A stretch of 64,000 bases of DNA. Source: Anaerolineae bacterium. Its GTDB lineage: Bacteria > Chloroflexota > Anaerolineae > Aggregatilineales > Aggregatilineaceae. The position numbers and the translations under genes were made by a program. Below, piece after piece: positions 38,800 to 59,619 of this stretch; position 1 is the stretch's first letter; each line of letters starts with the position of its first letter. The notes below the pieces were generated by a model, which worked only from the letters and a program-made list of their open reading frames with translations, made no database searches and had not been told where the DNA came from. The stretch spans positions 62,001 through 126,000 of the forward strand of contig JAHDLB010000008.1 of NCBI GenBank assembly GCA_018432315.1, given 5' to 3'.

Positions 38800-40320
<1,521 letters not shown>

Positions 40321-42005: not shown

Positions 42006-42013
42006 GGTAGCCC

Positions 42014-42787: not shown

Positions 42788-42934
42788 CCGCGGGCCGGTG
42801 TTTGGTCGCTCTGACTATAGGCTCAAGCCGCATCCGGCGTTATCATCGTCGCCTGTTCGCGCGTGGACAGGCGGCGTTCGTTTGCCGGGCTGCCGTCCAC
42901 CTCAGGCCCTAGACCGTGTTGCGAGGAAACCATC

Positions 42935-44248
42935 ATGACTGCCTTCGATACGCCCCGTTTTGCCGTGCCGGATCAAACGCTGGTTCCCGTCGATGCGTAT
43001 CCCGGCGCGATGTACGAGATTCCGCCGTCGCGCATGTTCCTGATCAAGCACTCGCTGAAGAAATACCGCGACAAGATGGGCCCCGGCGCGACAATCTTCG
43101 ACGCGTCGCAGGGCGACGGGGGCGCATCGCTGCCCGGCGTCCCGGCGGACCTGCTCGACCGCGCGCACGAGATGGTGAGGGCGCACGGCACCGGCTACGA
43201 CTTTCCCTACGGCTGCAACGAGTTCCGCGCCTCGGTGATCGAGCAGTACTGGCAGCTCGACCCGGCGCTGGGGTGGGGGCCCGCCAACGTGATCGCCACC
43301 GTGGGCGGGCGCGACGCGCTCGAAAAAGCGTATACCGCCATGATCGCGCTGGGAACGGGGCGCATTGGCGACGCGGTGATCGTCTCGCGCGTGCCGTGGA
43401 TCAGCTACAACTGGGGCCCGTATGCCGTCGGGGCGAACGTGCTGCTGGCCCCGGGTGACGAGGCGTTCGCCTGGCGCTACACCGAGGACGGCATCGCCGA
43501 GTCGGTCGCCTTCTGCAAGCGCAACGGCGGGCGGCAGATCGCCGGGATCGTGATCACCTCGCCGGACAACCCGACCGGCCACACGCTCTCGCTGGAGCGC
43601 CAGATCGCGCTCGGCCATGCGGCGCTGGAGCAGGGCATCCCGTTCGTGCTCTACGACTGGATCTACCACTACATCACCGAGGGCGAGCCGGCCAGCGCCA
43701 ACGCGCTGCTGGGCGCGTTCTCGCCGGACGAGCGCGAGCGGATCATCATCCTCGACGGGCTGACCAAGTCGCTCGGCGCGTCGAACGTGCGCGGCGGCCA
43801 CCTGCTGGCGAGCAAGCAGGTGATCGACTTCATCAGCGGGCGCGCCTCGCACGGCGTGATCCCGTCCTTCCACGCCCAGGCGGTGGCGATGGCGGCTTAC
43901 GAGCGCGGCTTCCGCGAGGCGGCGGCGCCGATCATCGAGCCGACGAACGCCAGCCGCAAGCTCGTGCGGCAGTTCCTGACCGACTGCGGCTACCGCTTCA
44001 TTATGGGCGACGGCGGCTATTACGCCTTCGTGAACGTGGGCGACCGAATGGACGCCGCCGGGATGGACGACAGCTTCGCCCTGGGCGAGTATCTGGCGGC
44101 GGAGCACGGCGTGGCGGTGGTGCCCGGTGCGGCGTTTTCTGCCGAGGGCAACCGCTGGATCCGGTTTTCGTACGCGCTGCCGCCCGACGTGACGCAGGGC
44201 GCGCTGAGGCGCTTCCACGCGGGGCTGAGCGCGCTCAAGCAGGCGTGA
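42935..44248 (+). CDS. PLP-dependent aminotransferase, class I/II
   Basis: A 437-residue fold-type I aminotransferase. Features: VGGRDALEKAYTAM (cofactor phosphate side), SPDNPTGHTLS (the NPTG motif), YDWIYHYI in place of the usual YDE(I/V)Y, and LDGLTKSLGASNVRGGHL with the PLP-binding Lys. C-terminal RWIRFSYAL supplies the carboxylate-binding Arg. Substrate cannot be assigned; no pathway genes adjoin. GCGAGGAAAC precedes the ATG. A strong terminator follows directly. Confidence 0.9.
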   Translation: MTAFDTPRFAVPDQTLVPVDAYPGAMYEIPPSRMFLIKHSLKKYRDKMGPGATIFDASQGDGGASLPGVPADLLDRAHEMVRAHGTGYDFPYGCNEFRASVIEQYWQLDPALGWGPANVIATVGGRDALEKAYTAMIALGTGRIGDAVIVSRVPWISYNWGPYAVGANVLLAPGDEAFAWRYTEDGIAESVAFCKRNGGRQIAGIVITSPDNPTGHTLSLERQIALGHAALEQGIPFVLYDWIYHYITEGEPASANALLGAFSPDERERIIILDGLTKSLGASNVRGGHLLASKQVIDFISGRASHGVIPSFHAQAVAMAAYERGFREAAAPIIEPTNASRKLVRQFLTDCGYRFIMGDGGYYAFVNVGDRMDAAGMDDSFALGEYLAAEHGVAVVPGAAFSAEGNRWIRFSYALPPDVTQGALRRFHAGLSALKQA

Positions 44249-44256
44249 GCATCCGG

Positions 44257-44283
44257 ACCCCCTGGGCGCACCAGGGGGTTTTT
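44257..44283 (+). terminator. Intrinsic terminator after the aminotransferase
   Basis: ACCCCCTGG (44257-44265), a 5-nt loop and CCAGGGGGT (44271-44279) form a perfect 9-bp stem running into TTTTT. Confidence 0.92.
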
Positions 44284-44294
44284 CTTAGCGCCGA

Positions 44295-44678
44295 TTACCG
44301 TTCAGCCGCGCCAGCAGCGCCAGGCGCGGCTTTTTGGGTCAGATAGTGCCGCGCCTTATCCAGTCCATCTGTGCGCAGAAACTTCCGCGGGCCCCGGTAA
44401 TAGACGCGCAGCTCCTCTATCGCCGGTTCGAGCAGGTGGCGCTCGCCTCCACATTCCTGAATCGTCGTGTGGATGCGGATACCATAGGTATCGTTCATCT
44501 CGTGTACAAAGGTGTGGAAAGATGTGTATTGGTCCTCTTGTCCTTCCGGTACGGCATAGGTTTTTCGATAGGCCGCTACGTCCGAGAGGGTGAATCCCAT
44601 CTCTCGCAATTCCTTACGTAGACGCCGAGTTGTTTGGCCTTCTATCTGACCAGTCCGATCAATCGGGTGCTGTTTCAT
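44295..44678 (-). CDS. Small protein of unknown function with atypical codon use
   Basis: A 127-residue protein I do not recognise. It is soluble, starts with MKQHPIDRTGQIEGQTTRRL, and has a middle part with FHTFVHEMNDTYGIRIHTTI and a C-terminal helix pair (EPAIEELRVYYRGPRKF). Spacing of His residues could suit a metal site but this is a guess. The DNA from about 44390 to 44690 has clearly less G/C at third positions than its neighbours, suggesting recent arrival. GGAGG is about 10 nt before the ATG at 44678. It lies 71 bp downstream of the kinase-like gene on the same strand. Confidence 0.6.
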   Translation of the reverse strand: MKQHPIDRTGQIEGQTTRRLRKELREMGFTLSDVAAYRKTYAVPEGQEDQYTSFHTFVHEMNDTYGIRIHTTIQECGGERHLLEPAIEELRVYYRGPRKFLRTDGLDKARHYLTQKAAPGAAGAAER

Positions 44679-44749
44679 CCCCTCTTTACCTCCAGGAGTT
44701 CGCAGATCAGCGGCAAGGCGCGGAGTTTGACGCCGCTCGCCGGAACCGT

Positions 44750-45493
44750 TCACTCCGGTTCGCCCTCCGGCAGCAGGTGCTGAAGCCCGGTGACGATGAC
44801 CTGCGCGGCGGCCTCGACGCTCAGCTTGCCGGTGTTGAGGACGATGTGATACAGCGCCGGATTCTCCCAGTCGATGTCGTAGAAGCGGCCCAGGTATTCG
44901 GCGGTCGCGCGGTCCTTGCGCATGATGAACCGCCGCGCCTCGTCCTCTTCGACGCGCGCCTCCTCCATGATGCGCTGGGTCCGGACGTCGGTCGGGGCTT
45001 CGATGCGCACGTGCAGCACGTCGGGCGCTTCGCGCAGGACGGCCTGGGCGCCCCGGCCCACGATCACGACCTTGCCGGCGATGTGCGCGGCGTGAATCGT
45101 GCTGCGAATCAGGCTGACGCAGTATACCTCGTCCAGTTCCTTGATGGTGAGCGGACTAGGTTCTTCCGGCTCGGTGGGGGCCGGCTGGAAGGGATAGTGG
45201 CGGCGTGGCCGGTGGACGATCACGTCGCCCGTCGCGGTCATCGCTTCCTCGTGCTCGATCGGAATGCGGGCAACGGTGCGCGGCCCGGGGCGCAGCAGGC
45301 GTTCGATGAAGTTCTGGACAGTGTAATGATCTTCCGAATAATCGACCAGCTCGCGCTCGGACAGGCCGACTTCTTCCGCGACCTGGGTCATCAGGCGTTT
45401 GTCGAAATACTGGTAGTCGAGGATCTCGCAGACCCGCGCGGCGATCGCGTCGCCGCCGCTGCCGATCTGCCGGGAAATGGTGATAGCTGCCAT
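44750..45493 (-). CDS. Cytidylate kinase-like protein
   Basis: A 247-residue P-loop protein of the cytidylate kinase-like family. The loop is TISRQIGSGGDAIA (about 4-17), followed by ILDYQYFDKRLM, VGRGAQAVL and LHVRIEAPTDVRTQRIM (the usual lid/NMP region). True CMP kinase has GxGGxGKG/S; here the Lys is missing from the loop, as in other members of this family, whose substrate is not known to me. The ATG at 45493 has GGAGG 7 nt upstream. A minus-strand promoter is visible at 45655-45684. Confidence 0.85.
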   Translation of the reverse strand: MAAITISRQIGSGGDAIAARVCEILDYQYFDKRLMTQVAEEVGLSERELVDYSEDHYTVQNFIERLLRPGPRTVARIPIEHEEAMTATGDVIVHRPRRHYPFQPAPTEPEEPSPLTIKELDEVYCVSLIRSTIHAAHIAGKVVIVGRGAQAVLREAPDVLHVRIEAPTDVRTQRIMEEARVEEDEARRFIMRKDRATAEYLGRFYDIDWENPALYHIVLNTGKLSVEAAAQVIVTGLQHLLPEGEPE

Positions 45494-45654
45494 CGTACAC
45501 CTCCGGAAAGTTACGGGCGGTCGAGAGGTGCGGATCAGCTTCGGCGCGCATCCGGGCACAGCCGGCGCCCCTGCGACATTCCCCTGCACGATCCGGGTGC
45601 GGGCGAACATGCCCGGCGCGGCCCCGCTATCAGGCGTGGATTGTTCTGAATACC

Positions 45655-45684
45655 AGTATACAGGATGCGCGCGCGGCTTGTCGA
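45655..45684 (-). promoter_or_regulatory. Promoter of the cytidylate kinase-like gene
   Basis: On the minus strand TCGACA (45684-45679), an 18-bp spacer and TATACT (45660-45655). The leader to the start at 45493 would be about 155 nt. Confidence 0.55.
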
Positions 45685-45704
45685 TAGAGGGGGCCGGGCG
45701 CGTT

Positions 45705-45732
45705 TTGTTTTCGCCCGATGCTATGCTAGAAT
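45705..45732 (+). promoter_or_regulatory. Promoter of the nuo membrane-subunit operon
   Basis: TTGTTT (45705-45710), a 16-bp spacer and an extended -10, TGCTAGAAT (TAGAAT at 45727-45732). The leader to nuoA is about 120 nt. Confidence 0.5.
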
Positions 45733-45858
45733 GGAGGGCGGTGACGCGCGCTCAGCGGTCCACATCGGCTGACCTGTAGGCCGCTGATAGACTTGCTCAC
45801 GACTGCCAATAATTTGTTAAAGCGGACCGTCCACCGTATGCTGGAGGGTATATCGGTT

Positions 45859-46218
45859 ATGAGTTTGAACGAGTGGATCTTTATTGGCCTCTTTTTTGCA
45901 TTGAGCTGGATTCTGCCAGCCACGCCCATCGTTCTGGGCAAGATCCTCGCCCCCCGCCGGCCCAACCCGGTCAAACATCAGGTCTACGAATGCGGCGTCG
46001 AAACGTTCGGCGACACGCGCGTCCAGTTCCGCGCCCAGTATTACATCTTCGCGCTGGTGTTCGTGCTGTTCGATGTCGAGCTGGTGTTCCTGTTCCCCTG
46101 GGCGCTGGCCTACAACCAGTTGGGGCTGTTCGCGCTCTTCGAGATGACGGTCTTCATCTTCTTGTTGGTCGTCGCCCTGGTCTATACCTGGCGCAAAGGC
46201 GCGTTGACATGGGCATAA
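45859..46218 (+). CDS. nuoA: NADH-quinone oxidoreductase subunit A
   Basis: A 119-residue subunit with three membrane helices, part of the junction between membrane and peripheral arms of complex I. The conserved loop KHQVYECGVETFGDTRVQFR and the third-helix acidic stretch VLFDVELVFLFPWA are diagnostic. The ATG at 45859 gives the usual length and has GGAGGG upstream; an ATG 21 bp earlier is possible. In most bacteria nuoB, C and D follow; here nuoH follows directly. Confidence 0.95.
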   Translation: MSLNEWIFIGLFFALSWILPATPIVLGKILAPRRPNPVKHQVYECGVETFGDTRVQFRAQYYIFALVFVLFDVELVFLFPWALAYNQLGLFALFEMTVFIFLLVVALVYTWRKGALTWA

Positions 46219-46294
46219 CCCGACAGGTCGGTAGCGTGTCGATCCGCCGCCGGCCTTTTTGCTTGTCGTTGCGAATCTCGCCGGAGATGACAGA

Positions 46295-47473
46295 ATGACA
46301 GAGTTGTTGCAGGATATTGGTTTGTCGCACGGCCTCGCCGTCTTCATCGCCAAAGCAGTGGGCGTGATGGTGGTGGGGGCGTTCGGCTTGCTCTGGACGC
46401 TGCTCGGCATCTGGATCGAGCGCAAGGCGGCGGGCCGCTTTCAGGATCGGTTGGGGCCGAACCGCGTCGGGCCGTTTGGCCTGATCCAGTCCATCGCCGA
46501 CACGGTCAAGATTTTACTGAAGGAAGACCTGATGCCCCAGGGCGCCGACCGCTGGGTGTTCAACCTGGCGCCGATCGTGTCCGTGGTATCGGTGATGCTG
46601 ATCTGGGCGGTCGTGCCGTTCAGCGGAAGCTGGATCGGATCGGACCTGAATATCGGCGTGCTATACCTGGTGGCGGTGGGCGCGTTCGGCACGGTGGCCG
46701 TGCTGATGGCCGGCTGGAGCAGCAACAACAAGTACGCCCTGCTCAGCGCGTTCCGGTCGGTGGCCCAGCTCGTCAGCTATGAGGTGCCGATGGTGCTGGC
46801 GCTGCTGGTGCCGGTGCTGCTCTCCGGCTCGATGAGCACGCAGACGATCGTCGAGCAGCAGCACATCATGTACCTGCTGGCCGTGCCGCTGACGGTGCTG
46901 ATCTTCCTGACGAGCGGCCAGGCCGAAACCGGGCGCGGGCCGTTCGACCTGCTCGAAGCGGAATCGGAGATTGTGTCCGGCTTTCACATCGAGTACTCGG
47001 GCATGAAGTTCGGCATGTTCTACGTGGCCGAGTTCCTGCACGCGTTCACGATCGGCGTGCTGACGGCGATCCTGTTCATGGGCGGCTGGCGCGGCCCGTT
47101 CGCCGAGGATGTGCCGCTGTTGGGGTTCATCTACCTGATGATCAAGAGCATGGTGGCCTACATGGTGCTGATCTGGGTGCGCATGACCCTGCCGCGCCTG
47201 CGCATCGACCAGTTGCTCGATTTCAACTGGAAGTTCCTGGTCCCGCTCAGCCTGGTCAACCTGCTGGTGGTCGCGTTTGTGTGGAAGATCCTGCCCGACA
47301 CCGACCAGATTAACAGCTTCGGCGATGCGCTGGTGCCCACGCTGGTGCTGCTGGTGGTGAACATCGCCCTGATCGCGGGCGTGGGTGCCATCCTGCGCGA
47401 GCGCGGGCGGCGCGAGCGGCAGCGGGTCGAGGCGCGGTTGACCGCAGCCGAATCTGCGGCGGCGGGTGATTAG
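46295..47473 (+). CDS. nuoH: NADH-quinone oxidoreductase subunit H
   Basis: A 392-residue subunit with about eight membrane helices that forms much of the quinone tunnel. Family signatures: ERKAAGRFQDRLGPNRVGPF near the N-terminus and the acidic loop GQAETGRGPFDLLEAESEIV followed by GFHIEYSGMKFGMFYVAEF. A charged C-terminal extension (RERGRRERQRVEARL) is unusual. GGAGA lies 8 nt before the ATG. It follows nuoA by 76 bp with no nuoBCDEFG between. Confidence 0.96.
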   Translation: MTELLQDIGLSHGLAVFIAKAVGVMVVGAFGLLWTLLGIWIERKAAGRFQDRLGPNRVGPFGLIQSIADTVKILLKEDLMPQGADRWVFNLAPIVSVVSVMLIWAVVPFSGSWIGSDLNIGVLYLVAVGAFGTVAVLMAGWSSNNKYALLSAFRSVAQLVSYEVPMVLALLVPVLLSGSMSTQTIVEQQHIMYLLAVPLTVLIFLTSGQAETGRGPFDLLEAESEIVSGFHIEYSGMKFGMFYVAEFLHAFTIGVLTAILFMGGWRGPFAEDVPLLGFIYLMIKSMVAYMVLIWVRMTLPRLRIDQLLDFNWKFLVPLSLVNLLVVAFVWKILPDTDQINSFGDALVPTLVLLVVNIALIAGVGAILRERGRRERQRVEARLTAAESAAAGD

Positions 47474-47482
47474 GAGGGCGGC

Positions 47483-48058
47483 GTGGATATTACGGTTGAA
47501 TCGATTGTCTTTTTGATCTTCGGAGTTCTGACCCTGGGCAGCGCGCTGCTGGTGGTCACCACGCGCAACCTGTTTCACGGCGCGCTGTACCTGATGGCGA
47601 GCCTGTTCGGGGTGGCCGGGCTGTTCGTGCTGCTGGCCGCGCCGTTCCTGGCCGGGGTGCAGGTCGTGGTGTACATCGGCGCGATCGCGATCCTGATCAT
47701 CTTCGCGATCATGCTCACGCCCCAGGTAACGGCCATGCGCAGCGTGCGCACGGCCCAATGGCCGGTGGCGGTCGCCGTGGCGGTGATCTTCTTCGCGCTG
47801 CTGGTGTCGGTCGTCACGCCGCTGATGGACGAGCTGGGCGTGGACGACTTCGCGGCGGACTTCACCCAGGAGAACCCGCCCGACGTGCCCGCCGACAGCC
47901 TGGTCCGGCTGGGCGAGCAGTTGGTCGATCCGCAGCAGTTCATGCTGCCGTTCGAGGTGGCGTCGGTGCTGCTGATGGCGGCGCTGATTGGGGCCGTGCT
48001 GCTGGTGTGGCCCGAAGGCACACGATCGACACCGCCGGGCGAGGCGGGCGACGATTAG
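47483..48058 (+). CDS. nuoJ: NADH-quinone oxidoreductase subunit J
   Basis: A 191-residue membrane subunit with five helices. [20 protein letters not shown] and the third-helix [20 protein letters not shown] (the pi-bulge helix coupling quinone chemistry to proton pumping) are conserved. An extra hydrophilic loop (about 118-155, [20 protein letters not shown]) precedes the last helix. GTG start at 47483 with GGAGGG upstream. nuoI, usually between H and J, is missing. Confidence 0.95.
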
Positions 48059-48123
48059 CGTTTGGCGTGCATTGGGCAGGGGCCGCCCGGCGGCGGGCGC
48101 TCTTGCGGGAGGCGTGGAGACGA

Positions 48124-48432
48124 ATGGTACCGTTATGGATGTACTTGATGGTGGCTGCCGGGCTGTTTAGCATCGGGCTGTACGGCGTGCTCGCACGGCG
48201 CAACGCCATCGCCATTTTGATGAGCATCGAACTGATGTTAAACGCGGTCAACATCAACCTGGTCGCGTTCTGGCGCTACCAGGCGCCGCTCGCGCTCAAC
48301 GGGCAGGCGTTTGCCGCGTTCGTGTTTGTGGTGGCGGCAGCCGAGGCGGCGGTCGGCCTGGCGCTGATCATCACCATCTATCGCCGGCGCCAGTCGGTGA
48401 TCGCCGAAGACGTGGACTTACTCAAGTGGTGA
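48124..48432 (+). CDS. nuoK: NADH-quinone oxidoreductase subunit K
   Basis: A 102-residue subunit with three helices. The two membrane Glu residues important for proton transfer are in [12 protein letters not shown] and [13 protein letters not shown]. Length matches the family. The ATG at 48124 follows GGAGACGA. MrpC-like antiporter subunits are homologous, but the order J-K-L and the NuoH gene support complex I. Confidence 0.95.
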
Positions 48433-48460
48433 TCGGCCACAACGACAGAGGAAATCGCGT

Positions 48461-50710
48461 ATGGATATAAATTGGTTTCACGCCGACTATCTCCCCTGGC
48501 TGATCCTGTTGTTCCCGCTGGTGAGCTTCCTGGTCATCGTGCTGTTCACCTCGAAGAACACGGTCCTCAGCCAGGTGGTGGGCCTGGGCGGGATTGGCGT
48601 GTCGTGGGCGCTCAGCATGGTGCTGTTCGTCAAGACGGTGTGGGCCGCGGACCCCGCGCTGGGCGAGCGCGTGTACGGCAGCTCGCTCGACTGGATGAGC
48701 CTGGGCGCGTATACCTTCCGCATGGGCGTGCTGGTCGACCCGCTGACGGCGTACATGCTGCTGATGGTCCCGCTGGCCTGCCTGATGATCTTCATCTACT
48801 CGGTGGGGTACATGCGCGGCGACGCGCACAATTCGCGCTTCTTCGCCTACATCTCGCTGTTTTCGGGCGCGATGCTCGTCCTCGTCCTGGCCGACAACCT
48901 GCTGCTGCTGTTCATCGGCTGGGAGCTGATGGGCTTCTGCTCGTACTCGCTGATTGGCTTCTGGGCGCACAAGAAGACCGCCATGGAAGCCGGCGTCAAA
49001 GCCTTCATGACGACCCGCGTGGCCGACATGCTGATGCTGGTCGGGATCGGGTACCTGTTCCTGGAGGCGCGCACGCTCAACTTCCGCGACATCCTCTACA
49101 ACGAAGAGATGCTGCACCACCTGGCGAGCACCGACGCGATCCTGTTCGGCGGCAGCGTGGCCGGGCTGGTGGGCGTGCTGCTGGTCATCGGCACCATCGG
49201 CAAGAGCGCGCAGTTTCCGCTGCACACCTGGCTGCCCGATGCGATGGAAGGCCCGACCCCCGTCAGCGCGATGATCCACGCGGCGGCGATGGTGTCGGCG
49301 GGCGTGTACATGGTCGTGCGCATGTTCCCGCTGCTGTCGGCGGGCGCGGACTTCCACCATTTCGATTACAGCACGCCGATGGTCTTCATGGGCCTGATCG
49401 GCGCGATCACGGCGCTGGGCGCGGCGGTGCTGGCCCTGGGTCAGAACGACATCAAGCGCATCCTGGCCTATTCGACGATCAGCCAGTTGGGGTACATGGT
49501 GGCGGCGCTCGGCATCGGCGCGTGGGTGGCGGCGGTCTTCCACCTGATCAACCACGCGTTCTTCAAAGCGCTGTTGTTCATGGCGTCCGGCTCGGTGATC
49601 CACGCGATGGAGCACGGCGAGCATCACGCCGCCGAGCACGGCCACGGCCACGCGGAGCACGAAGAACCCGACGGGCTGGTGATGGATTACGTCGCGCCGC
49701 CCAACGACATCCAGCGCATGGGCGGGCTGCTGCACCGGCTGCCCGTCACGGCGATCACGATGGCGATCGGCGGGCTGTCGCTGGCCGGATTCCCGCTGCT
49801 GACCGCCGGGTTCTGGTCGAAAGATGAGATCATCGCCGAGGCGTGGCACGGCATGACGAACGATCCGTTCCCGCTGTTCGTGCTGCTGGCGCTGGTGGTA
49901 GCGGCCTTCCTGACGGCCTTCTACACCGCGCGCATGTGGCTGCTGACCTTCTGGGGCCAGCCGCGCACCCCGGCGGCGGAATACGCCAGCCTGGGCACCT
50001 TCCGCAAGCAGTGGGTGGTGTGGTGGAACAAGCGCGGCTGGAACAAAGACGTCAAGCTGATGCAAGAGCCGACCACTGCCCGCGACCGGCTGAGCTTCGC
50101 GCAGATGGAAACGCCGCTGATCATCCTGGCCTTTTTCGCCATTTTTGCCGGGTTCATCGGCACGCCGGTCTATCACGCGCTGCACGACTTCCTGGCGCCG
50201 ACCCTGCTCGAAGAACCGCTCAAGATCGACTTCAACGTCCTGCCGATGCTGCTCAGCATGGCGCTGGCGCTCGGCGGGCTGGCGCTGGGCTGGTGGGTGT
50301 ATGCGGTGAAACCGCTGCGCCAGGACGAGGTCGATCCGACCGAAAAGGCGCTGGGGCCGGGCGTGTGGGAGATGCTGCAAAACCGGCTCTACATCGACAT
50401 CCTCTACCGGCGCTACCTGCTGCGCCCGGTGGAGTGGTTCTCGGTCAACATCGTGATCCAGGCCATCGACAAGGAGACGATCGACGGAGTGCTCGAAACC
50501 ATCGCCGAGGCATTCACCTGGCTGGGCGAAGCCTTCAAGCGCTTCAACACGGTCGTGATCGACGGCGTGGGCGACGGCCTTCCGCGCGCGGTGGGCGACT
50601 TTGGGGCGTGGTTCCGACAGGTGCAATCCGGTCGTATCCAACAGTATCTGCTGTACGTCACACTGGCGCTGCTGGCGCTGGGCACGCTGTTCCTGGTCCA
50701 GGTGAGATAA
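48461..50710 (+). CDS. nuoL: NADH-quinone oxidoreductase subunit L, long form
   Basis: A 749-residue antiporter-like subunit at the distal end of the membrane arm, longer than the ~610 residues of E. coli NuoL. Core motifs: LLFIGWELMGFCSYSLIGFW (key Glu), HTWLPDAMEGPTPVSAMIHA, HAFFKALLFMASGSVI and TAGFWSKDEI (key Lys). A His/Glu-rich insertion EHGEHHAAEHGHGHAEHEE sits near 384-402. The C-terminal ~150 residues include the lateral amphipathic helix and a final membrane anchor (YVTLALLALGTLFLVQVR). GAGGAAA precedes the ATG. Confidence 0.95.
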   Translation: MDINWFHADYLPWLILLFPLVSFLVIVLFTSKNTVLSQVVGLGGIGVSWALSMVLFVKTVWAADPALGERVYGSSLDWMSLGAYTFRMGVLVDPLTAYMLLMVPLACLMIFIYSVGYMRGDAHNSRFFAYISLFSGAMLVLVLADNLLLLFIGWELMGFCSYSLIGFWAHKKTAMEAGVKAFMTTRVADMLMLVGIGYLFLEARTLNFRDILYNEEMLHHLASTDAILFGGSVAGLVGVLLVIGTIGKSAQFPLHTWLPDAMEGPTPVSAMIHAAAMVSAGVYMVVRMFPLLSAGADFHHFDYSTPMVFMGLIGAITALGAAVLALGQNDIKRILAYSTISQLGYMVAALGIGAWVAAVFHLINHAFFKALLFMASGSVIHAMEHGEHHAAEHGHGHAEHEEPDGLVMDYVAPPNDIQRMGGLLHRLPVTAITMAIGGLSLAGFPLLTAGFWSKDEIIAEAWHGMTNDPFPLFVLLALVVAAFLTAFYTARMWLLTFWGQPRTPAAEYASLGTFRKQWVVWWNKRGWNKDVKLMQEPTTARDRLSFAQMETPLIILAFFAIFAGFIGTPVYHALHDFLAPTLLEEPLKIDFNVLPMLLSMALALGGLALGWWVYAVKPLRQDEVDPTEKALGPGVWEMLQNRLYIDILYRRYLLRPVEWFSVNIVIQAIDKETIDGVLETIAEAFTWLGEAFKRFNTVVIDGVGDGLPRAVGDFGAWFRQVQSGRIQQYLLYVTLALLALGTLFLVQVR

Positions 50711-50726
50711 CGCGAGGCGCACCTCC

Positions 50727-52430
50727 ATGTACGATTTGTTACCCATAGACTTCTTGACGCTGCTGACCTTCCTGCCCTTGTTGGGCGCGGTGATCGTCTT
50801 CGTCATCCCGCGCGGGCGCGAAAACTGGGCACGCTGGACGGCGCTGGGGTTCAGCCTGGTGGTGCTGGTGATGACCATCGCCGTGTTCTACAACGTCCAG
50901 TCCGACCCGCCAGGGCCGGGCCAATGGGCGTTCGAGGAGCAGGCCGAATGGTTCCCGCAGCTCAACGCGTCGTGGCACATCGGCGTCGATGGCCTGAGCG
51001 CCACCATGATCCTGCTGACCGGCATCCTGGTCCCGCTGGCGATCCTGATCTCGTTCGAGACGAAGGAGCGTGTGCAGGCCAACATGGCGCTGTTCCTGTT
51101 CCTGCAGACCGGGATGCTCGGCGTATTCGTGGCGCTGGACATGATGGTCTTCTTCGTCTTCTGGGAGATCGGGCTGGTGCCGATGTACTTCCTGATCTAC
51201 CTGTGGGGCGGCGAGAACCGGCGTTATGCGGCCAACAAGTTCTTCCTGTACACCATGGCCGGGTCGCTGGGGCTGCTGCTCGCCACGCAGTTGATCGGCC
51301 TGTCGGTCGAGAGCTTCGACATCCCGGTGATGATGCAGGCGTGGCCCAATTTCACCGGCTCGTCCGGCGAGATCCTGGGCGTGGACGCCTCGATCATCAA
51401 ATATTACGCGCTGCTCGGCTTCACCATCGCGTTCCTGATCAAGATTCCCGCGTGGCCGTTCCACACGTGGCTGCCCGACGCGCACACCGAAGCGCCGACC
51501 GGCGGCTCGATGCTGCTGGCGGGTGTGCTGCTCAAGCTGGGCGCCTACGGGTTCCTGCGGCTGGCGATCCCGCTGTTCCCCACCGAGTGGATCATTCGCC
51601 GCGAGCTGTTCAGCCTGCAATACAACCTGGTGGACGTGCTGGGCTTCCTGGCCGTGCTGGGGATCGTGCTCGGCGCGCTGGCGGCCTGGGGCCAGAACGA
51701 TTTCAAGCGGCTGGTCGCCTATTCGTCGGTGAACCACATGGGCTTCGTGGTGTTGGGGCTGGCCGTCGCGGCGCTGATGTACGGCACCGTCTGGGCCGAG
51801 CAGAACAACAAGTGGGGCCTGATGGGCGACGTGGCCGGCGTCGAGCGCGCCGAGGCGACCAAGACGAAGGTCGACGAGGTCTACCCGGTCGAGCTGCGCG
51901 AGTCCGACCGGGACGACGCGCGGATCGCGCTCAACGGCGCGGTGCTGCAAATGTTCAACCACGGGCTGAGCAGCGCGGGCATGTTCCTGCTGGCCGGGGC
52001 GCTCTATCACAAGGCCCACACGCGCGACCTGCGGCGGTTCGGCGGCCTGTGGGACATCGTGCCGGTGTTCGGCGCGCTGCTGATCTTCGTCAGCATGGCG
52101 TCGCTGGGCCTGCCGGGCCTCAACGGCTTCGTGGGCGAATTTCTGATCGTCTCGGGATCGTTCAAAGCGTACCCGGTGTACGTGTTCCTGAGCCTGTTCG
52201 GCCTGCTGGTGACCGGCATTTACATCCTCAAGGGGATTCAAAAATTATTACACGGCCCCTACAACGAAGAATGGGCCGAATATGACCGGACCGAGCACCG
52301 GCTGGAGATCGAACGGCGCGAAGTGATCGCGCTGGCGCCGTTGGTGGTGTTGATGCTGATCACGGGCCTGTATCCGAACTGGGTGCTGGACGTGATCAAC
52401 AGCGGCGTGGTGCGGTTCCTGGGTGGCTGA
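50727..52430 (+). CDS. nuoM: NADH-quinone oxidoreductase subunit M (first copy)
   Basis: A 567-residue antiporter-like proton-pumping subunit with about 14 helices. Motifs: FFVFWEIGLVPMYFLIYLWG (key Glu), HTWLPDAHTEAPTGGSMLLA, LKLGAYGFLRLAIPLFP and VNHMGFVVLGL. A hydrophilic insertion at about 354-400 (NNKWGLMGDVAGVERAEATK and following) is not typical of NuoM. It is followed 26 bp later by a second, divergent NuoM. GCGAGGCG precedes the ATG. Confidence 0.94.
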   Translation: MYDLLPIDFLTLLTFLPLLGAVIVFVIPRGRENWARWTALGFSLVVLVMTIAVFYNVQSDPPGPGQWAFEEQAEWFPQLNASWHIGVDGLSATMILLTGILVPLAILISFETKERVQANMALFLFLQTGMLGVFVALDMMVFFVFWEIGLVPMYFLIYLWGGENRRYAANKFFLYTMAGSLGLLLATQLIGLSVESFDIPVMMQAWPNFTGSSGEILGVDASIIKYYALLGFTIAFLIKIPAWPFHTWLPDAHTEAPTGGSMLLAGVLLKLGAYGFLRLAIPLFPTEWIIRRELFSLQYNLVDVLGFLAVLGIVLGALAAWGQNDFKRLVAYSSVNHMGFVVLGLAVAALMYGTVWAEQNNKWGLMGDVAGVERAEATKTKVDEVYPVELRESDRDDARIALNGAVLQMFNHGLSSAGMFLLAGALYHKAHTRDLRRFGGLWDIVPVFGALLIFVSMASLGLPGLNGFVGEFLIVSGSFKAYPVYVFLSLFGLLVTGIYILKGIQKLLHGPYNEEWAEYDRTEHRLEIERREVIALAPLVVLMLITGLYPNWVLDVINSGVVRFLGG

Positions 52431-52456
52431 GCAGAACATTCACGGAGGCCTTTTGT

Positions 52457-54061
52457 ATGGTAATGACGTTTAGCGGTGTCCTGACGGGCATCCTCCTCAT
52501 CCCGCTGATCAGCGCGATCATCATCCTTCTGCTGCCCAAGGAGAAGAAGGAAGAGGCGCGCATCATCGCGGCGATGGCGACGGGGATGGTCCTGCTGCTG
52601 GCCCTCGGCGTGTTCTTCGGCTACAGCGTTGACGACGCCAACGCTGCCAACGACAACGGCCAGGCGTACTTCGCATATGAGGATCACGTCCAGTGGATCG
52701 AGTCGATTGGCGTGAGCTGGCACCTGGGCGTGGACGGCATCAGCGCGCCGATGGTCCTGCTGACGGCGCTGGCCGGGTTCACCGGGGTGCTGATCTCGTG
52801 GGGCATCGAAGATCGCACCCGCGAGTTCATGGCCTTCTTCCTGCTGTTGGTGGGCGGCGTGTTGGGCGTGTTCATGGCGGTCGACCTGTTTGTGCTGTTC
52901 TTCTTCTACGAGCTGGCGATCTTCCCGATGTACTTCCTGATCGTCATCTGGGGCTGGGTGAAGACGCGCGAATACGCGGCCATGAAGCTGACGCTCTACA
53001 TCCTGGTCGGGTCCGTGGTGGCGCTGATCGGCATGCTGGCGCTGTATTTCAAGGCCGGGCAGGCGACGGGCGTGTACAGCTTCGATTTCGTGGACCTGCA
53101 AGCGGCGGCCAAAGCGGGCGTGTTCGACGAGCCGTTCTCGCCGGCGTGGTCCGCGGCGACCACCGCGCGGCTGTGGTTCCCGGCCATCTTCATCGGGTTT
53201 GGCGTGCTGGCCGGTGTGTGGCCCTTCCATAACTGGAGCCCGGACGGTCACGTTGCCGCACCGACCGCCGTCTCGATGATTCACGCGGGCGTGCTGATGA
53301 AGCTCGGCGCGTTCGCCGCGCTGCGGGTTGGCGTGCAGCTTCTGCCGGAGGGCGCCAAGGCGCACCTGCCCTGGATCATCTTCCTGACCCTGATCAACGT
53401 GGTTTACGGCGCGCTGATCGCCATGCGCCAGCGCGATTTCAAATACGTCATCGGTTTCAGCTCGGTCAGCCACATGGGGCTGGTGAGCATGGGCTTCGCC
53501 ACGATGAACGTCACCGGCATGACCGGCGCGGGCCTGCAAATGTTCAGCCACGGCGTCATGACGGCGCTCTTCTTCGCCTGCGTCGGCATGGTGTACGACC
53601 GCGCCCACACGCGCGACATCCCCAGCCTGGGCGGCTTCGTGCAAAAACTGCCCTGGGTGGCGGTGGCCTTCATCATCGGCGGGTTCGTGAGCATGGGCAT
53701 GCCGGGGCTGAGCGGGTTCGTGGCCGAGTTCCCGATCTTCGTCGGGCTGTGGGATGGCCCGAACTTCGCGCCGGACGCGGGCTGGCTGACCGGCAGCTTC
53801 ACCTATTACGGGCTGATCGCGGTCGTGGCGGCGCTGGGCATCATCGTCACGGCGGCCTACGTGCTGCGCGTCGTGGGGCAGGTGTTCTTCGGCGACTTCA
53901 ACCGCGAGCGCTTCCCGGACGTGTCGCCGATCACGATCTACGACAAGATCGCGTTGGTGGTGCTGGTGTTCTGGCTGGTAGCGCTCGGTGTCTATCCCCG
54001 GCTGATGGCGCCGATGGTCGAATCGGGCGTCAAGCCTATCGTGTCGATGCTGGGAGGTTAA
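52457..54061 (+). CDS. nuoM: NADH-quinone oxidoreductase subunit M (second copy)
   Basis: A 534-residue second NuoM-like subunit. It keeps the key Glu in FFFYELAIFPMYFLIVIWGW and the SVSHMGLVSMGF segment, but the channel motif reads HNWSPDGHVAAPTAVSMIHA instead of HTWLPDAH, and it lacks the insertion of the first copy. It is therefore a diverged paralogue, not a recent duplicate. It probably adds a further antiporter-like module to the membrane arm. CGGAGG precedes the ATG. Confidence 0.92.
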   Translation: MVMTFSGVLTGILLIPLISAIIILLLPKEKKEEARIIAAMATGMVLLLALGVFFGYSVDDANAANDNGQAYFAYEDHVQWIESIGVSWHLGVDGISAPMVLLTALAGFTGVLISWGIEDRTREFMAFFLLLVGGVLGVFMAVDLFVLFFFYELAIFPMYFLIVIWGWVKTREYAAMKLTLYILVGSVVALIGMLALYFKAGQATGVYSFDFVDLQAAAKAGVFDEPFSPAWSAATTARLWFPAIFIGFGVLAGVWPFHNWSPDGHVAAPTAVSMIHAGVLMKLGAFAALRVGVQLLPEGAKAHLPWIIFLTLINVVYGALIAMRQRDFKYVIGFSSVSHMGLVSMGFATMNVTGMTGAGLQMFSHGVMTALFFACVGMVYDRAHTRDIPSLGGFVQKLPWVAVAFIIGGFVSMGMPGLSGFVAEFPIFVGLWDGPNFAPDAGWLTGSFTYYGLIAVVAALGIIVTAAYVLRVVGQVFFGDFNRERFPDVSPITIYDKIALVVLVFWLVALGVYPRLMAPMVESGVKPIVSMLGG

Positions 54062-54062
54062 G

Positions 54063-55586
54063 TTGAACTTCTCGACTGATACCCAGGCGAGTGTAATCGC
54101 AATCCTGCCTGAAATACTCATGACGATCCTGGCCGTGGCGGTGCTGGTCTATGACGTGATCTGGCCGGAAGAACGGCGCGTCCAGCTTGGCTACCTGGCC
54201 GGGTTCGGGCTGATGAGTATCGCGGGCGTGGTCTGGCTGATCGGCGTGCCACCGGCGGGCGGGCTGCAAGAGCAGCTTTTGCTGGGCGGCATGGTCCGGC
54301 ACGACGACATGGCCCAGATCTTCCGCGTGATGGTCATCCTGGCGGGCGCGTTGAGCTGCCTCCTGGCGATGGGCGTGCTCAAGCTGCGGGCACGCGGCGA
54401 CTTCTACGCTGTGCTGATCGTGGCGGTGATCGGCGCCAGCCTGATGAGCGCTGCCGCCGACCTGATCATGATCTTCCTGGCGCTGGAGACGACCTCGATC
54501 ACGCTCTACCTGCTGGCGGGGTACCTGCGCGACGACGATCGCAGCACCGAAGCGGGCCTCAAATATTTCCTGTTCGGCGCGTTTACGTCGGCCTTCACGC
54601 TGTACGGGCTGTCGCTGGTGTACGGTCTGACCGGCCAGACGAACATCTACGAGCTGGGCAAAACCCTGGCGACCAACGGCCTGCCCGATCCGCCGGTGGT
54701 GATCGCGCTGGGGCTGGTGGCGGTCGGCTTCGGGTTCAAGATCAGCGCTGTGCCGTTCCACTTCTGGACGCCGGACGTGTACGAAGGCGCGCCGACGCCC
54801 ATCACGGCCCTGCTGAGCTCGGCCAGCAAGGCGGCGGCGGTCGGTTTGCTGCTGCGCTTCCTGCTGGCGGTGTTCCCGCCGCCGGAACTGCTCGGTGCGC
54901 TGGAAGGCGTCAAGGATTACAGCGCGTTCTGGGTGCAGCTCGCGGCGGTGCTGTCGGTGGTGTCGATGTCGCTCGGCAACGTGCTGGCCCTGGTCCAGAG
55001 CAACATCAAGCGCCTGCTGGCCTATTCGACCATCGCGCACGCCGGGTACATCCTGATCGGCGTGGCGGCGATCTCGACCGACTGCAGCGGCGACGGCGCG
55101 GCGGCGGTGGCGTTCTACATGTTCATGTACGTCCTGACGAATATCCTGGCGTTCGGCGTGGTCATCCTGTTCGCCAACGCGACCGGCAGCGAGCAGATCA
55201 GCGACCTGGCCGGGCTGAGCCGCCGCAACCCGTGGCTGGCCCTGGCGATGACGATCGCGCTGCTCAGCCTGGCGGGCATCCCCCCGGCGGCGGGCTTCAT
55301 CGGCAAGTTCCTGCTGTTCCGCGCGGCGGTCAACGCGAATCTTGTCTGGCTGGCGCTGGTCGGCATCGTGAACGTGATCATCGGCCTGTACTACTACCTG
55401 GTCGTGGTCAAGGTGATGTACATGGAGCGCAGCGAGGACGAAGACAAGCCGATCCCGGTCGGCACGCCGTACTCGTGGGCGCTGGGGATCTCGGTGGCGG
55501 GCGTGCTGCTGTTCGGCACGATCCTGGTCACGCCGCTGCTCGACTGGGCGACCGACGCGGCTCACGCGCTGTACGTGCTGCTCTAG
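54063..55586 (+). CDS. nuoN: NADH-quinone oxidoreductase subunit N
   Basis: A 507-residue antiporter-like subunit, proximal of the three pump types. Motifs: MIFLALETTSITLYLLAGYL (key Glu), GFGFKISAVPFHFWTPDVYE with GAPTPITALLS, and SLAGIPPAAGFIGKFLLF. The TTG at 54063 starts one base after the nuoM stop codon, with GGAGGT upstream. It is the last gene of the nuo unit; a strong terminator follows. Confidence 0.95.
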   Translation: MNFSTDTQASVIAILPEILMTILAVAVLVYDVIWPEERRVQLGYLAGFGLMSIAGVVWLIGVPPAGGLQEQLLLGGMVRHDDMAQIFRVMVILAGALSCLLAMGVLKLRARGDFYAVLIVAVIGASLMSAAADLIMIFLALETTSITLYLLAGYLRDDDRSTEAGLKYFLFGAFTSAFTLYGLSLVYGLTGQTNIYELGKTLATNGLPDPPVVIALGLVAVGFGFKISAVPFHFWTPDVYEGAPTPITALLSSASKAAAVGLLLRFLLAVFPPPELLGALEGVKDYSAFWVQLAAVLSVVSMSLGNVLALVQSNIKRLLAYSTIAHAGYILIGVAAISTDCSGDGAAAVAFYMFMYVLTNILAFGVVILFANATGSEQISDLAGLSRRNPWLALAMTIALLSLAGIPPAAGFIGKFLLFRAAVNANLVWLALVGIVNVIIGLYYYLVVVKVMYMERSEDEDKPIPVGTPYSWALGISVAGVLLFGTILVTPLLDWATDAAHALYVLL

Positions 55587-55608
55587 CGCGGCATTTTTCG
55601 GCATGACT

Positions 55609-55644
55609 CAGGGGCGGCTGTCGCGTGATGGCCGCCCCTGTTTT
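55609..55644 (+). terminator. Intrinsic terminator ending the nuo operon
   Basis: CAGGGGCGGC (55609-55618), a 12-nt loop and GCCGCCCCTG (55631-55640) form a perfect 10-bp stem followed by TTTT. Confidence 0.9.
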
Positions 55645-55727
55645 GTGCCTGGGTGCCGGGCGCTCGCAACGCGGCGGGCGCGCCGTGCGTATATTCCTTC
55701 AGACGCGTGAGTGAGGAGAGGTTCAGC

Positions 55728-55892
55728 ATGGCCGAAGAGAAAACCTTCCCCTGCGAGACGTGCGCGATGCGCCGCCGCGCCGAGGAAAACCCGAAATCGT
55801 TCATGGCCCGGTTGTGGCGCTGGCATACCAAGATATGCCCCGGCTGGAAAGCCTACCAGCGCCACCTGGCCGAGCAGGGGCGGAGCCAGTAA
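55728..55892 (+). CDS. 54-residue Cys-containing protein
   Basis: A 54-residue protein starting MAEEKTFPCETCAMRRRAEE, with CETC and a third Cys in KICPGWKAYQRHL. A single CxxC plus a later Cys and His might hold zinc, but the fourth ligand is not certain. It is basic and aromatic (FMARLWRWHTK), so it could bind nucleic acid or protein. GAGGAGAGG lies 7 nt before the ATG, supporting it as a real gene. No known family is recognised. Confidence 0.65.
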   Translation: MAEEKTFPCETCAMRRRAEENPKSFMARLWRWHTKICPGWKAYQRHLAEQGRSQ

Positions 55893-55950
55893 CCGGCCCG
55901 GTTCCAACAGCGGGGCGCATCGCCCGGTGCGCCCCGAACGCTGCTCCCTC

Positions 55951-56667
55951 TCACGCGCTCCGCAGCGCGGCGTCGACCTTGCCCCGCAGCAGCGGTTCCG
56001 GCGCGGCCCCCACGATGCGATCCACCACGCGCCCGCCACGGAAGATCAGCAGGGTGGGGATGCCCTGCACGTGGTAGGCGTTGGCCGTGGCCGGGTTCTC
56101 GTCCACGTTCAGTTTGGCGACCTTCAGCCGCCCGGCGTATTCCCCCGCCAGTTTTTCCACCACGGGCGCGATCATGTGGCACGGGCCGCACCACGGCGCC
56201 CACAGATCGACCAGCACCGGCAGATCGCTCTCCAGCACGTCGCGCCGGAACGACTCATCGCTGACCGCCACCGGTTTGGACGGCGCGCCGGCTGGCGCGC
56301 CCTGGGCGGCCCGAGCGGCTGCCGGGCGTGCCTGGGGGCGCGGGCCGCGTCCCAGCAGGAAATCGACGTGCTCGCGGGCGGTCGCGGACGTGACGCCCTC
56401 GGCCCGCGCCACCTCCTGCCCGTCGCGGTAGGTGATGAGCGCCGGCAGCGGCCCGGCGACCCGCGCGGCGGTCTGCGGGTTGGCGCTCGCGTCCAGCCGG
56501 GCGACCAGCAGCCGCCCGGCGTCGTTCTGCGCGATCTGGCGCAGGGTTTCGTCGAGCGATCCGTCCAGGCTGTCGCGCCAGATGACCAGCACGACCGGCA
56601 GGCCGGTGTTCAAAACGCGATCAATGCTTTGATCGTTGGTGTGCAAAGGTGTGTCGAAGCGTGGCAT
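55951..56667 (-). CDS. Tandem thioredoxin-domain protein
   Basis: A 238-residue protein with two thioredoxin folds. The N-terminal one (about 5-105) has [20 protein letters not shown] where the active site would be, i.e. no CxxC, but keeps [11 protein letters not shown]. An Ala/Pro/Arg-rich linker (about 112-135) leads to a canonical thioredoxin (140-238) with [20 protein letters not shown] and [11 protein letters not shown]. The second domain should be redox-active; the first may bind substrate. No signal peptide, so cytoplasmic. The start at 56667 has AAGGAG about 10 nt upstream. Confidence 0.9.
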
Positions 56668-56784
56668 GGTGAATTTGCTCCTTTCCCATCTCTCTTTAGA
56701 TGCTGTTCTGCGCGATTTGGTTAGCATCGATATGTCGAATCTGCGTTAGAAACCCGTAAATTCTGTCATTTTTGATTCGTTTTT

Positions 56785-56813
56785 TTGACAATTACAGGGG
56801 ACTTTGCTACGCT
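56785..56813 (+). promoter_or_regulatory. Promoter of the atp membrane-sector operon
   Basis: A perfect TTGACA (56785-56790), 17-bp spacer and an extended -10, TGCTACGCT (TACGCT at 56808-56813), in an AT-rich stretch. It lies 82 bp before the first gene. Confidence 0.65.
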
Positions 56814-56894
56814 TGTGCTTTAAGGCACAGGGGGCTCTGGTCACGACGTCGTGGTTGAATCCTCCTCAACGAGCGCGCAGCGGGATTGACCATC

Positions 56895-57425
56895 ATGCAC
56901 GCCAGAAAAGCGTCGTACAGTGCGCGATACACTGCCGTGAATGCCGTGGTTGGAGAAGCCGGCTGTGCGGGACTGGCCTTCATAGCGCTGGCGACAGGCG
57001 CGGGCCTGCTGCTGGATTTTCAAGTCACAAATTTGCATCCGATATTTAGCGTGGGGCTGTTGTTCCTGAGCATCCCCGCGGGCCTGTACTGGACGATCCG
57101 CAGGACGCTGAGCATGGACCGGAAGGTGACCCCTGACTATGTGCGCAACCTGGCGCTGGCGAGCATGGCAAGCCAGGCGGGCTGTCTCAGCGTGATCCTG
57201 ATCTTTCTGGCCCTGTTTGCCGGGCTGTTCCTCGACGCCCGGCTGGATACGCACCCTATTTTTACCATCGTACTTATTGTCATCAGCATCCCGGTCAGCC
57301 TGCTGGCGATGATCCGGCTGATGCTGTCTTCGGTGGCGGCGATGAAGCTGTCGGCGGCGGACACCTCGCGCGCCACCCCCTCTTCCACCGGTAAGTCTGT
57401 CCATACGAAGGAGAATGGCTCTTGA
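56895..57425 (+). CDS. Tandem AtpZ/AtpI-like membrane protein
   Basis: A 176-residue protein with four hydrophobic helices arranged as two homologous halves. Half one has GAGLLLDFQ, then HPIFSVGLLFLSIPAGLYW; half two has AGLFLDARL, then HPIFTIVLIVISIPVSLLA. Each half resembles the two-helix AtpZ/AtpI-type protein that precedes ATP synthase genes and assists c-ring assembly or Mg2+ handling. The family is normally ~70-120 residues with one such unit. ATG at 56895; an upstream TTG (56886) is an alternative. Its stop overlaps the atpB start. Confidence 0.8.
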   Translation: MHARKASYSARYTAVNAVVGEAGCAGLAFIALATGAGLLLDFQVTNLHPIFSVGLLFLSIPAGLYWTIRRTLSMDRKVTPDYVRNLALASMASQAGCLSVILIFLALFAGLFLDARLDTHPIFTIVLIVISIPVSLLAMIRLMLSSVAAMKLSAADTSRATPSSTGKSVHTKENGS

Positions 57426-58528
57426 AGGGAGTGCTCATACTAATCGGCATCATCGTCTTCAGCGCTATCTTTTGTTACTGGGTGCCCTTCGTGCTCATGC
57501 CCGGCCAGGGGATCGCGGTAGCGCTGCCGGTGATTATGGTGCCCGGCGAAGTCGTTTGGGAGGATTTCCTGGGCGTCGAGGGCCTGACCGTCACCAACAC
57601 GATCATCGGGACCCTGGTGGCCGACGTGTTGGTGCTGCTCTTTGCCTTTGGCGCGACGCGGAACATGAAGAAGATTCCGGGGCGGCTGCAGAGCCTGTTC
57701 GAGATGCTGACCGAGGCGCTGTACAACCTCGCCAAGTCGACGGCAGGCCACAACGCGCGCGCGATCTTCCCGCTGATGGCGACGATCTTCCTGTTTCTGC
57801 TGATCGCCAACTGGGTCAAGCTGGTGCCCGGCGCCGAGAGCGTGGGCCTGATGCACTGCGCCCACGACGGCATCAACGGCTATCCGAAGAACGGCATCAT
57901 CCTCGACGTCGATTCGCCGCTGGATACCGGCACGCGCGCCACCGAGGCCGACTACGAAGCCTGCTACGCGGCGTCGCACGGTGAGGCTCACGCCGAGGAG
58001 GGCGATCACGGCGAGGAGGCTGTCGCTGAAGGCGCGGGCGAAGGCGAGGCAGCCACGGCTGAGGCCGAAGGCGCTCGCGACGACATCTACGCCGTGACGC
58101 CGTTCGTGCGCGGCGCGGCCACCGACCTCAACCTGACCCTGGGGTTGGGCCTGCTGGCCTTCCTGGCGATCCAGTACTTCGGCGTGAAGGCGCTGGGGAT
58201 CGGCTATTTCGCCAAGTTCGTGAACACCCCGGCGCTGGCGAACGTCGGTAAGCGGCCTATGGGGATCATGGATTTCGCCGTCGGGTTGTTGGAAATCATC
58301 CTCGAGCTGGCGAAAATTCTCAGTTTCGGCTTCCGTCTTTTCGGCAACCTGTTCGCGGGCGGCGTGCTGTTGTTCGTCATGTCGTTCCTGCTGGCGATGA
58401 TGGTTCCGGCAGCGGTTTACGTTTTGGAATTGTTCGTCGGCTTGATCCAGGCATTTGTGTTTGCCATGCTGCTGCTGGTCTTTAGCTCGATGGCGATGCA
58501 GCCGCACGGTCACGACGACGCGCATTAG
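57422..58528 (+). CDS. atpB: ATP synthase subunit a with a long acidic/His-rich loop
   Basis: A 368-residue Fo subunit a (usual length 230-280). The conserved proton-path Arg is Arg305 in SFGFRLFGNLFAGG; FVGLIQAFVFAMLLLVF is the last helix. The extra length comes from a hydrophilic loop at about 143-225 containing HGEAHAEEGDHGEE and an Ala/Glu/Gly run, between helices where E. coli has a short periplasmic loop. TTG start at 57422 overlaps the previous stop (TTGA), with GGAG upstream. It forms the proton half-channels against the c-ring. Confidence 0.94.
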   Translation: MKGVLILIGIIVFSAIFCYWVPFVLMPGQGIAVALPVIMVPGEVVWEDFLGVEGLTVTNTIIGTLVADVLVLLFAFGATRNMKKIPGRLQSLFEMLTEALYNLAKSTAGHNARAIFPLMATIFLFLLIANWVKLVPGAESVGLMHCAHDGINGYPKNGIILDVDSPLDTGTRATEADYEACYAASHGEAHAEEGDHGEEAVAEGAGEGEAATAEAEGARDDIYAVTPFVRGAATDLNLTLGLGLLAFLAIQYFGVKALGIGYFAKFVNTPALANVGKRPMGIMDFAVGLLEIILELAKILSFGFRLFGNLFAGGVLLFVMSFLLAMMVPAAVYVLELFVGLIQAFVFAMLLLVFSSMAMQPHGHDDAH

Positions 58529-58546
58529 ACGCATTACACACACTGA

Positions 58547-58807
<261 letters not shown>

Positions 58808-58829
58808 TCGCGGATCGGGAGGCACAAGG

Positions 58830-59531: not shown

Positions 59532-59562
59532 CGACCGGCGTATGCGGTAAGAACGATTCAGG

Positions 59563-59591
59563 CGCCAGGGATGTGTAGTCTCTGGCGTTTT
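59563..59591 (+). terminator. Intrinsic terminator ending the atp membrane operon
   Basis: CGCCAGGGA (59563-59571), a 7-nt loop and TCTCTGGCG (59579-59587) pair with one G-T wobble and run into TTTT. It shows that the transcription unit ends after the b-delta gene, so F1 genes are not simply further downstream in it. Confidence 0.85.
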
Positions 59592-59619
59592 CATTGCTTA
59601 TTGCTTTGAGGAGGCAATC

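Follow-up and report, generated by a model that had tools for sequence, protein, structure and literature searches.

A predicted Chloroflexota-type complex I membrane arm with two NuoM subunits, one of which lacks the lysine of transmembrane helix 7

Forms of complex I with two NuoM subunits (2M complexes) have been reported from cultured Chloroflexi (PMC7117926). The Chloroflexi type, which goes back to Chadwick et al. 2018 (via PMC7117926, PMC8004040), is characterized by the gene order nuoLM1M2N and by a separate nuoBCDI cluster with fused nuoCD, and the additional NuoM is credited with one more pumped proton. In Chloroflexus aggregans, the two-M set accompanies a complete 14-gene set, and both are transcribed (PMC8004040); the duplicated nuoM genes of C. 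aurantiacus were noted in 2011 (PMC3150298). The two-M arrangement is therefore already known. It is shared by the eight genes nuoA-H-J-K-L-M-M'-N at positions 45859–55586 of the stretch of DNA analysed here, which is a window of 64,000 nucleotides (contig C50:62001–126000) from the genome of an Anaerolineae bacterium (66 contigs, 5.69 Mb, 99.4% complete, 3.3% contamination). Homology and gene order identify the product of these genes as the membrane arm of a 2M complex I of the Chloroflexota type. The genes were identified from the list of open reading frames and by NCBIfam matches to NuoA, H, J, K, L, M, M, and N, and both nuoM products exceed the cut-off of 263.8 of the NuoM family TIGR01972, with 496 and 451 bits. 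The first nuoM of the cluster is called M1, and the second, adjoining nuoN, is called M2 (= M'). A second NuoM also occurs in the 2M complexes of Nitrospira and in Complex_I_3 of Manganitrophaceae, together with a comparable insertion (26 residues) in the lateral helix (PMC6606698, PMC9040806); however, these belong to another phylum, and the N. moscoviensis cluster has an enlarged nuoG and no nuoE, nuoF, or nuoH.

The assignment of an additional pumped proton implies standard proton-transfer residues in every antiporter-like subunit, and it is here that the locus departs from the published description. In each antiporter-like subunit of complex I, a glutamate of transmembrane helix (TM) 5 and a lysine of TM7 form an ion pair, and the set is completed by a lysine or histidine on TM8 and a lysine or glutamate on TM12 (PMC10212512, PMC7419157). 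Mapping of the pump residues from the Escherichia coli numbering of PMC9271201 identifies the full set in M1, NuoN, and NuoL of the window; in M2, the position of the TM7 lysine is occupied by Leu251. The leucine is present in 94 of 94 M2 sequences. The corresponding residue is lysine in all 89 M1, in the NuoM of all 15 single-M operons, E. coli included, and in 12 of 12 NuoM from other Chloroflexota. A shifted alignment is excluded as the cause, because the TM7 core of M2 is free of charged residues in every one of the 94 sequences. Apart from gaps, the key residues are retained in the NuoL and NuoN encoded by two-M clusters. The 94 M2 sequences form 76 clusters at 90% identity and 17 at 70%, and the named and unnamed loci come partly from the same genomes (L105/L175 and L104/L186 are examples). 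No mention of a lost TM7 lysine was found in the literature surveyed, which did not cover the 2018 paper defining 2M complexes.

Nineteen charged or histidine positions are kept in at least 90% of the other NuoM sequences. M2 has the same residue at 17 of them (each in at least 89 of the 94 sequences); one of the remaining two has changed mostly from glutamate to aspartate, and the other is the lost TM7 lysine. Glu152 of TM5 is retained in 93 of the 94 M2 sequences, Lys282 of TM8 in 90, His339 in 94, His365 in 90, and Glu424 of TM12 in 92. TM8 of M2 carries a second titratable residue, with histidine and lysine in 91 sequences and glutamate and lysine in the other three; TM8 of other NuoM has the lysine alone in 115 of 116 cases, the exception being E. 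coli with aspartate and lysine. The M2 sequences without the TM8 histidine, of the Leptolinea type (L189, L193, L194), have the glutamate four residues further on the same helix. The combination of histidine and lysine on TM8 is shared with MrpA of the Mrp antiporter; however, the TM7 lysine of that family is described as "absolutely conserved" (PMC7419157), whereas M2 lacks it and is otherwise NuoM-like. A normal NuoM fold is predicted for M2 (mean predicted local distance difference test score, pLDDT, 90.3), and the model matches solved NuoM chains with Z scores of 49.5 (mycobacterial) and 48.0 (E. coli, 3rko). Leu251 is positioned in the break of TM7: the helix formed by residues 236–249 stops just before it, and the break extends to residue 269, with low confidence in this region.

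The two NuoM are old paralogues. An earlier note on this DNA, made from the sequence alone, had recognized two diverged copies and proposed placing them in a tree, and trees calculated from selections of 16 and of 15 two-M loci (out of 94, the window included) assign them to separate clades and rule out a recent tandem duplication of nuoM. M2 forms one clade (100/100) that joins the NuoM of other Chloroflexota, represented by 8 of 12 sequences, and M1 joins the NuoM of 14-gene operons (100/100 for the split). The difference in the TM7 lysine corresponds to one change on the tree. A NuoD tree was built from ten two-M sequences, seven from other Chloroflexota, and nine canonical ones, E. coli among them; in it, the two-M NuoD is grouped with the same other Chloroflexota (99/97). 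On the evidence of the trees, M2 may be the complex's native NuoM, to which M1, a relative of the NuoM in 14-gene operons, was probably added later. The NuoM of rhizobial plasmids was considered as a second 2M clade and rejected: a plasmid search (388 of 388 records) gave matches of less than 60% identity only, and that form is described as MrpD-based (PMC9040806).

The organization of the cluster is conserved among relatives. Of 80 named loci fetched, 48 had enough flanking sequence to judge gene order, and all 48 have A-H-J-K-L-M1-M2-N, with a lone nuoI-like or nuoB-like match nearby in two. In a phylum sample of 81 genomes, the genome of the window included, each of the nine others from the same class has this order and carries M2 and a fused NuoCD. 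The closest named relatives of M2 are from the Anaerolineae metagenome-assembled genomes CHL4 and Gw_SlDig_bin_20, with 88% identity each.

The earlier note had found no genes for hydrophilic subunits in the window and had named a peripheral arm encoded elsewhere as one of two options; the first statement holds, and candidate peripheral partners do lie elsewhere in the genome. A whole-genome family search gave no matches to NuoB, NuoD, or NuoF in the window, and tblastn detected none of NuoB, C, D, E, F, G, and I at window positions 40000–59999 (locus L017), with C, E, G, and I not searched in the rest of the window. Genome-wide, there are five NuoB-like matches, five NuoD-like matches (in three proteins), and three NuoF-like matches. 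Contig C14 contains nuoB followed by a fused nuoCD and nuoI; the 614-residue NuoCD carries both the Complex1_30kDa (NuoC) and Complex1_49kDa (NuoD) domains. Contig C43 contains a complete nuoA-N operon with one NuoM. The C43 operon has the features of the canonical 14-subunit complex, namely a single A–N cluster, NuoE/F/G, and one NuoM, which the window cluster lacks; the window cluster shares with the canonical complexes of E. coli and C43 homologues of NuoA, H, J, K, L, M, and N and the key residues of L, M1, and N. The earlier note had named another full nuo operon as a possible refutation of its reading. Although such an operon exists, as it does in C. aggregans, it does not refute the split, because a B-CD-I cluster of its own belongs to the two-M complex. 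Mrp antiporter gene sets are not known to include NuoH. The window cluster encodes NuoH and is therefore not of the Mrp type; an Mrp-like cluster of this genome is located on contig C66.

The order B-CD-I is found in 10 of 10 loci (this genome and the nine from the same class). In seven of the nine genomes, the membrane and B-CD-I clusters lie on separate contigs; the distance between them is 37 kb in another genome and 234 kb in G005, which consists of one contig. A single-M operon is also present in all nine and runs from A to N in eight and from A to M in G037, where no match to NuoN was found within the stretch fetched. In all four more distant relatives examined (families f14 and f24; four of eight such genomes), the genes form one run, A-B-C-D-I-H-J-K-L-M1-M2-N. 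It is conceivable that the docking partner of the membrane arm is the C43 peripheral arm or a hydrogenase-like module instead of the C14 proteins, since the genome offers a complete nuoA-N set and, on contig C60, a membrane-hydrogenase-like cluster with its own NuoB-, NuoD-, and NuoH-like proteins. However, orthologues of the C14 genes are part of the gene run of the distant relatives, and the B-CD-I cluster accompanies the membrane cluster in every same-class genome sampled, which makes this docking very improbable.

The genes nuoE, nuoF, and nuoG were not found in the vicinity of either the membrane or the B-CD-I clusters, and NADH is therefore no more than a possible electron donor. Candidates for electron input are NuoEFG lent by the C43 operon and ferredoxin; sharing of NuoG has been raised for C. 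aurantiacus (PMC3150298). Two NuoE-NuoF fusions, at 122.7 kb of C43 next to fdhD and at 3.8 kb of contig C32 near a molybdopterin-domain protein, were rejected as a dedicated input, as they are unlinked to the two-M genes; they look like formate-dehydrogenase-type modules.

If the predicted proteins assemble, the peripheral quinone-reducing part would consist of NuoB, fused NuoCD, and NuoI from the separate cluster. Quinone reduction would drive protonation changes through NuoH, A, J, and K and onward along the antiporter-like subunits, which would number four and not the usual three and would be strapped together by the long lateral helix of NuoL. NuoN, M1, and NuoL would each contribute a complete TM5-Glu/TM7-Lys/TM8/TM12 set. 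M2, with its second titratable residue on TM8 and without the TM7 lysine, is probably a functional but rewired module that relays the signal along the charged axis and dispenses with the usual Glu-Lys gate. It would then add no independently gated proton, and the yield per two electrons would be closer to 4 H+ than to 5. We put the probability of this proposal as a whole, comprising a 2M membrane arm with a separate B-CD-I cluster, M2 as a rewired relay and the native NuoM, and M1 as the later addition, at about 55%. The idea that the complex pumps more protons per NADH, repeated in the earlier note, is unsupported as stated, because M2 lacks the TM7 lysine in all its sequences.

Several observations weigh against this proposal. 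One concerns the lateral helix, whose length the earlier note had proposed to check in connection with an additional module. The lateral segment was measured as the distance separating two anchor motifs in NuoL; it has 84 residues in the window and 53 in E. coli (31 fewer), and it is 82–88 residues long in all 77 two-M NuoL counted (three of the 80 found, with at most 550 residues, were dropped). The helix is thus long, and it is modelled as a single helix with a mean pLDDT of about 78–82 up to residue 690, followed by 66, 51, and 45 per ten-residue block. However, its length is not specific: the segment has 86–87 residues in nine of 14 single-M NuoL, including 86 in that of C43, and 53–57 in the remaining five, from E. 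coli and four Chloroflexota. Among 12 loci around the NuoM of other Chloroflexota, the spans are 56, 56, 87, 87, and 87 in five, and the anchor motif gave none in seven. Similar insertions occur in NuoL of the other complexes I of Manganitrophaceae (PMC9040806). The lateral helix therefore permits a fourth module, and its length was discarded as proof of one. Furthermore, the NuoM trees are unrooted, which makes the roles of native and newcomer a matter of inference, and PMC8004040 takes the NuoM adjoining NuoN as the additional one, which here is the lysine-less M2, whereas the trees point to M1. No biochemistry of complex I from C. aurantiacus or any filamentous anoxygenic phototroph was available as of 2011 (PMC3150298). 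A lysine-less M2 in a working complex would be odd, because the Glu-Lys pair of NuoM is essential for catalysis in a model system (PMC9802314). The 17 other charged or histidine positions kept in M2 suit a working pump as well as a relay, and the extra histidine or glutamate of TM8 could replace the TM7 lysine.

The last two points lead to the main rival explanation, that M2 is a full fourth pump in which the TM8 residue stands in for the lysine and the yield is 5 H+ per two electrons, a figure already put forward in the literature for 2M complexes. The near-complete retention of the other conserved charges and the presence of the extra titratable residue in every M2, with glutamate in the three that lack histidine, would be expected from such a pump, and NuoL likewise has a TM8 histidine, which presumably replaces the TM8 lysine (PMC7419157). 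However, the standard ion pair cannot form in M2, and since the pair is essential in the model NuoM (PMC9802314), one neighbouring titratable residue need not restore gating. A full pump is therefore considered unlikely, although it is the more credible of the two alternatives for the function of M2. The other alternative, that M2 serves only as a structural spacer and no longer transfers protons, agrees with the uniform loss of the lysine, but a spacer should have lost its other buried charges too. Glu152, Lys282, His339, His365, and Glu424 are instead kept in 90–94 of the 94 sequences, and a conserved histidine or glutamate has been gained on TM8; a spacer is accordingly improbable. A rewired relay or gate remains the preferred reading.

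It is tentatively proposed, at slightly less than even odds, that across Anaerolineae and related Chloroflexota a four-module complex I has a native NuoM that dropped its TM7 lysine after a second NuoM joined, and uses a His/Lys (or Glu/Lys) site on TM8 instead. If this is true, one module of a naturally occurring complex I is gated differently, and the published "one extra proton" needs to be re-measured. Two questions are open for complex I: whether a Glu-Lys pair is required in each antiporter-like subunit, and whether the count of these subunits determines how many protons are pumped. Model organisms provide poor answers to both, because mutations of the ion pair abolish pumping and activity of the intact enzyme (PMC11496545, PMC9802314). 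A natural experiment is provided by bacteria that have retained a complex I in which one subunit is lysine-less, and the loss of the lysine turns the claim of an extra proton into a testable one; cultured Chloroflexota with two-M loci include Leptolinea and Thermoflexus.

Table 1 Features of the two-M membrane cluster, in positions of the window
Feature	Position	Strand	Remarks
nuoA	45859..46218	+	119 residues; ATG start at 45859; NCBIfam match
nuoH	46259..47473	+	404 residues counted from TTG at 46259; NCBIfam match
nuoJ	47483..48058	+	191 residues; NCBIfam match
nuoK	48124..48432	+	102 residues; ATG start at 48124; NCBIfam match
nuoL	48461..50710	+	749 residues; TM5 Glu155, TM7 Lys248, TM8 His273, and TM12 Lys454 all present
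NuoL lateral (transverse) helix	50384..50614	+	residues 642–718, one predicted 77-residue helix
nuoM1	50727..52430	+	567 residues; full set of pump residues Glu147, Lys239, Lys270, and Glu471
nuoM2 (M')	52457..54061	+	534 residues; Leu251 in place of the TM7 lysine
M2 Leu251 codon, CTG	53207..53209	+	position of E. coli NuoM Lys234
M2 His276 codon, CAC	53282..53284	+	extra titratable residue on TM8
nuoN	54063..55586	+	507 residues; full set of pump residues
Hairpin resembling an intrinsic terminator, with T tail	55609..55640	+	14 pairs, then TTTT

All eight genes and the closing terminator described in the earlier note are recovered in this order (Table 1). The terminator scan is weak evidence when taken alone, with 10 terminator-like sites in the scanned stretch versus 7.1 in shuffled sequences. 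For nuoH, an ATG at 46295 is a more likely start than the TTG, judging from the reading frame. NuoM1 of the window contains a charged insertion of about 55 residues (residues ~350–405, positions ~51774–51942, limits judged by eye), and the NuoM1 of the nine same-class relatives are shorter by about this length.

Among the single-M operons, NuoL with an 86–87-residue lateral segment and an FWHD motif is encoded without a second NuoM in the operon at L014:10390–12678 (C43), L200, and L202–L208; in L209, from the same class, the segment has 57 residues. The nuoJ of C43 (L014:13072–14301) encodes 409 residues owing to a long insertion, and the relatives examined match its two ends only. The membrane-bound hydrogenase-like cluster (L015, C60:33000–47893) comprises NuoH-, NuoD/NiFe-, NuoB-, and NuoK-like genes and two antiporter-like genes. 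In the B-CD-I loci (L034, L112), a gene for an ArsR-type helix-turn-helix protein lies upstream of nuoB, and eight of the nine remaining loci contain a match to it; the gene that follows nuoI in L112, for an NUBPL-type Fe-S carrier ATPase, is matched in seven of the nine.

The gene atpB, encoding the a subunit of F-type ATP synthase, is located downstream of the nuo cluster on the same strand (57422–58528). It is found downstream of the two-M cluster in 60 of 71 loci of at least 13 kb, at a median distance of 2.2 kb past the end of nuoM2; seven of the 11 loci without it have less than 6 kb of downstream sequence, and the other four (L125, L131, L189, and L196) have about 10 kb. At the other end of the window, positions 38–8173 encode a histidine kinase of 2711 residues with approximately ten GAF domains and PAS domains.

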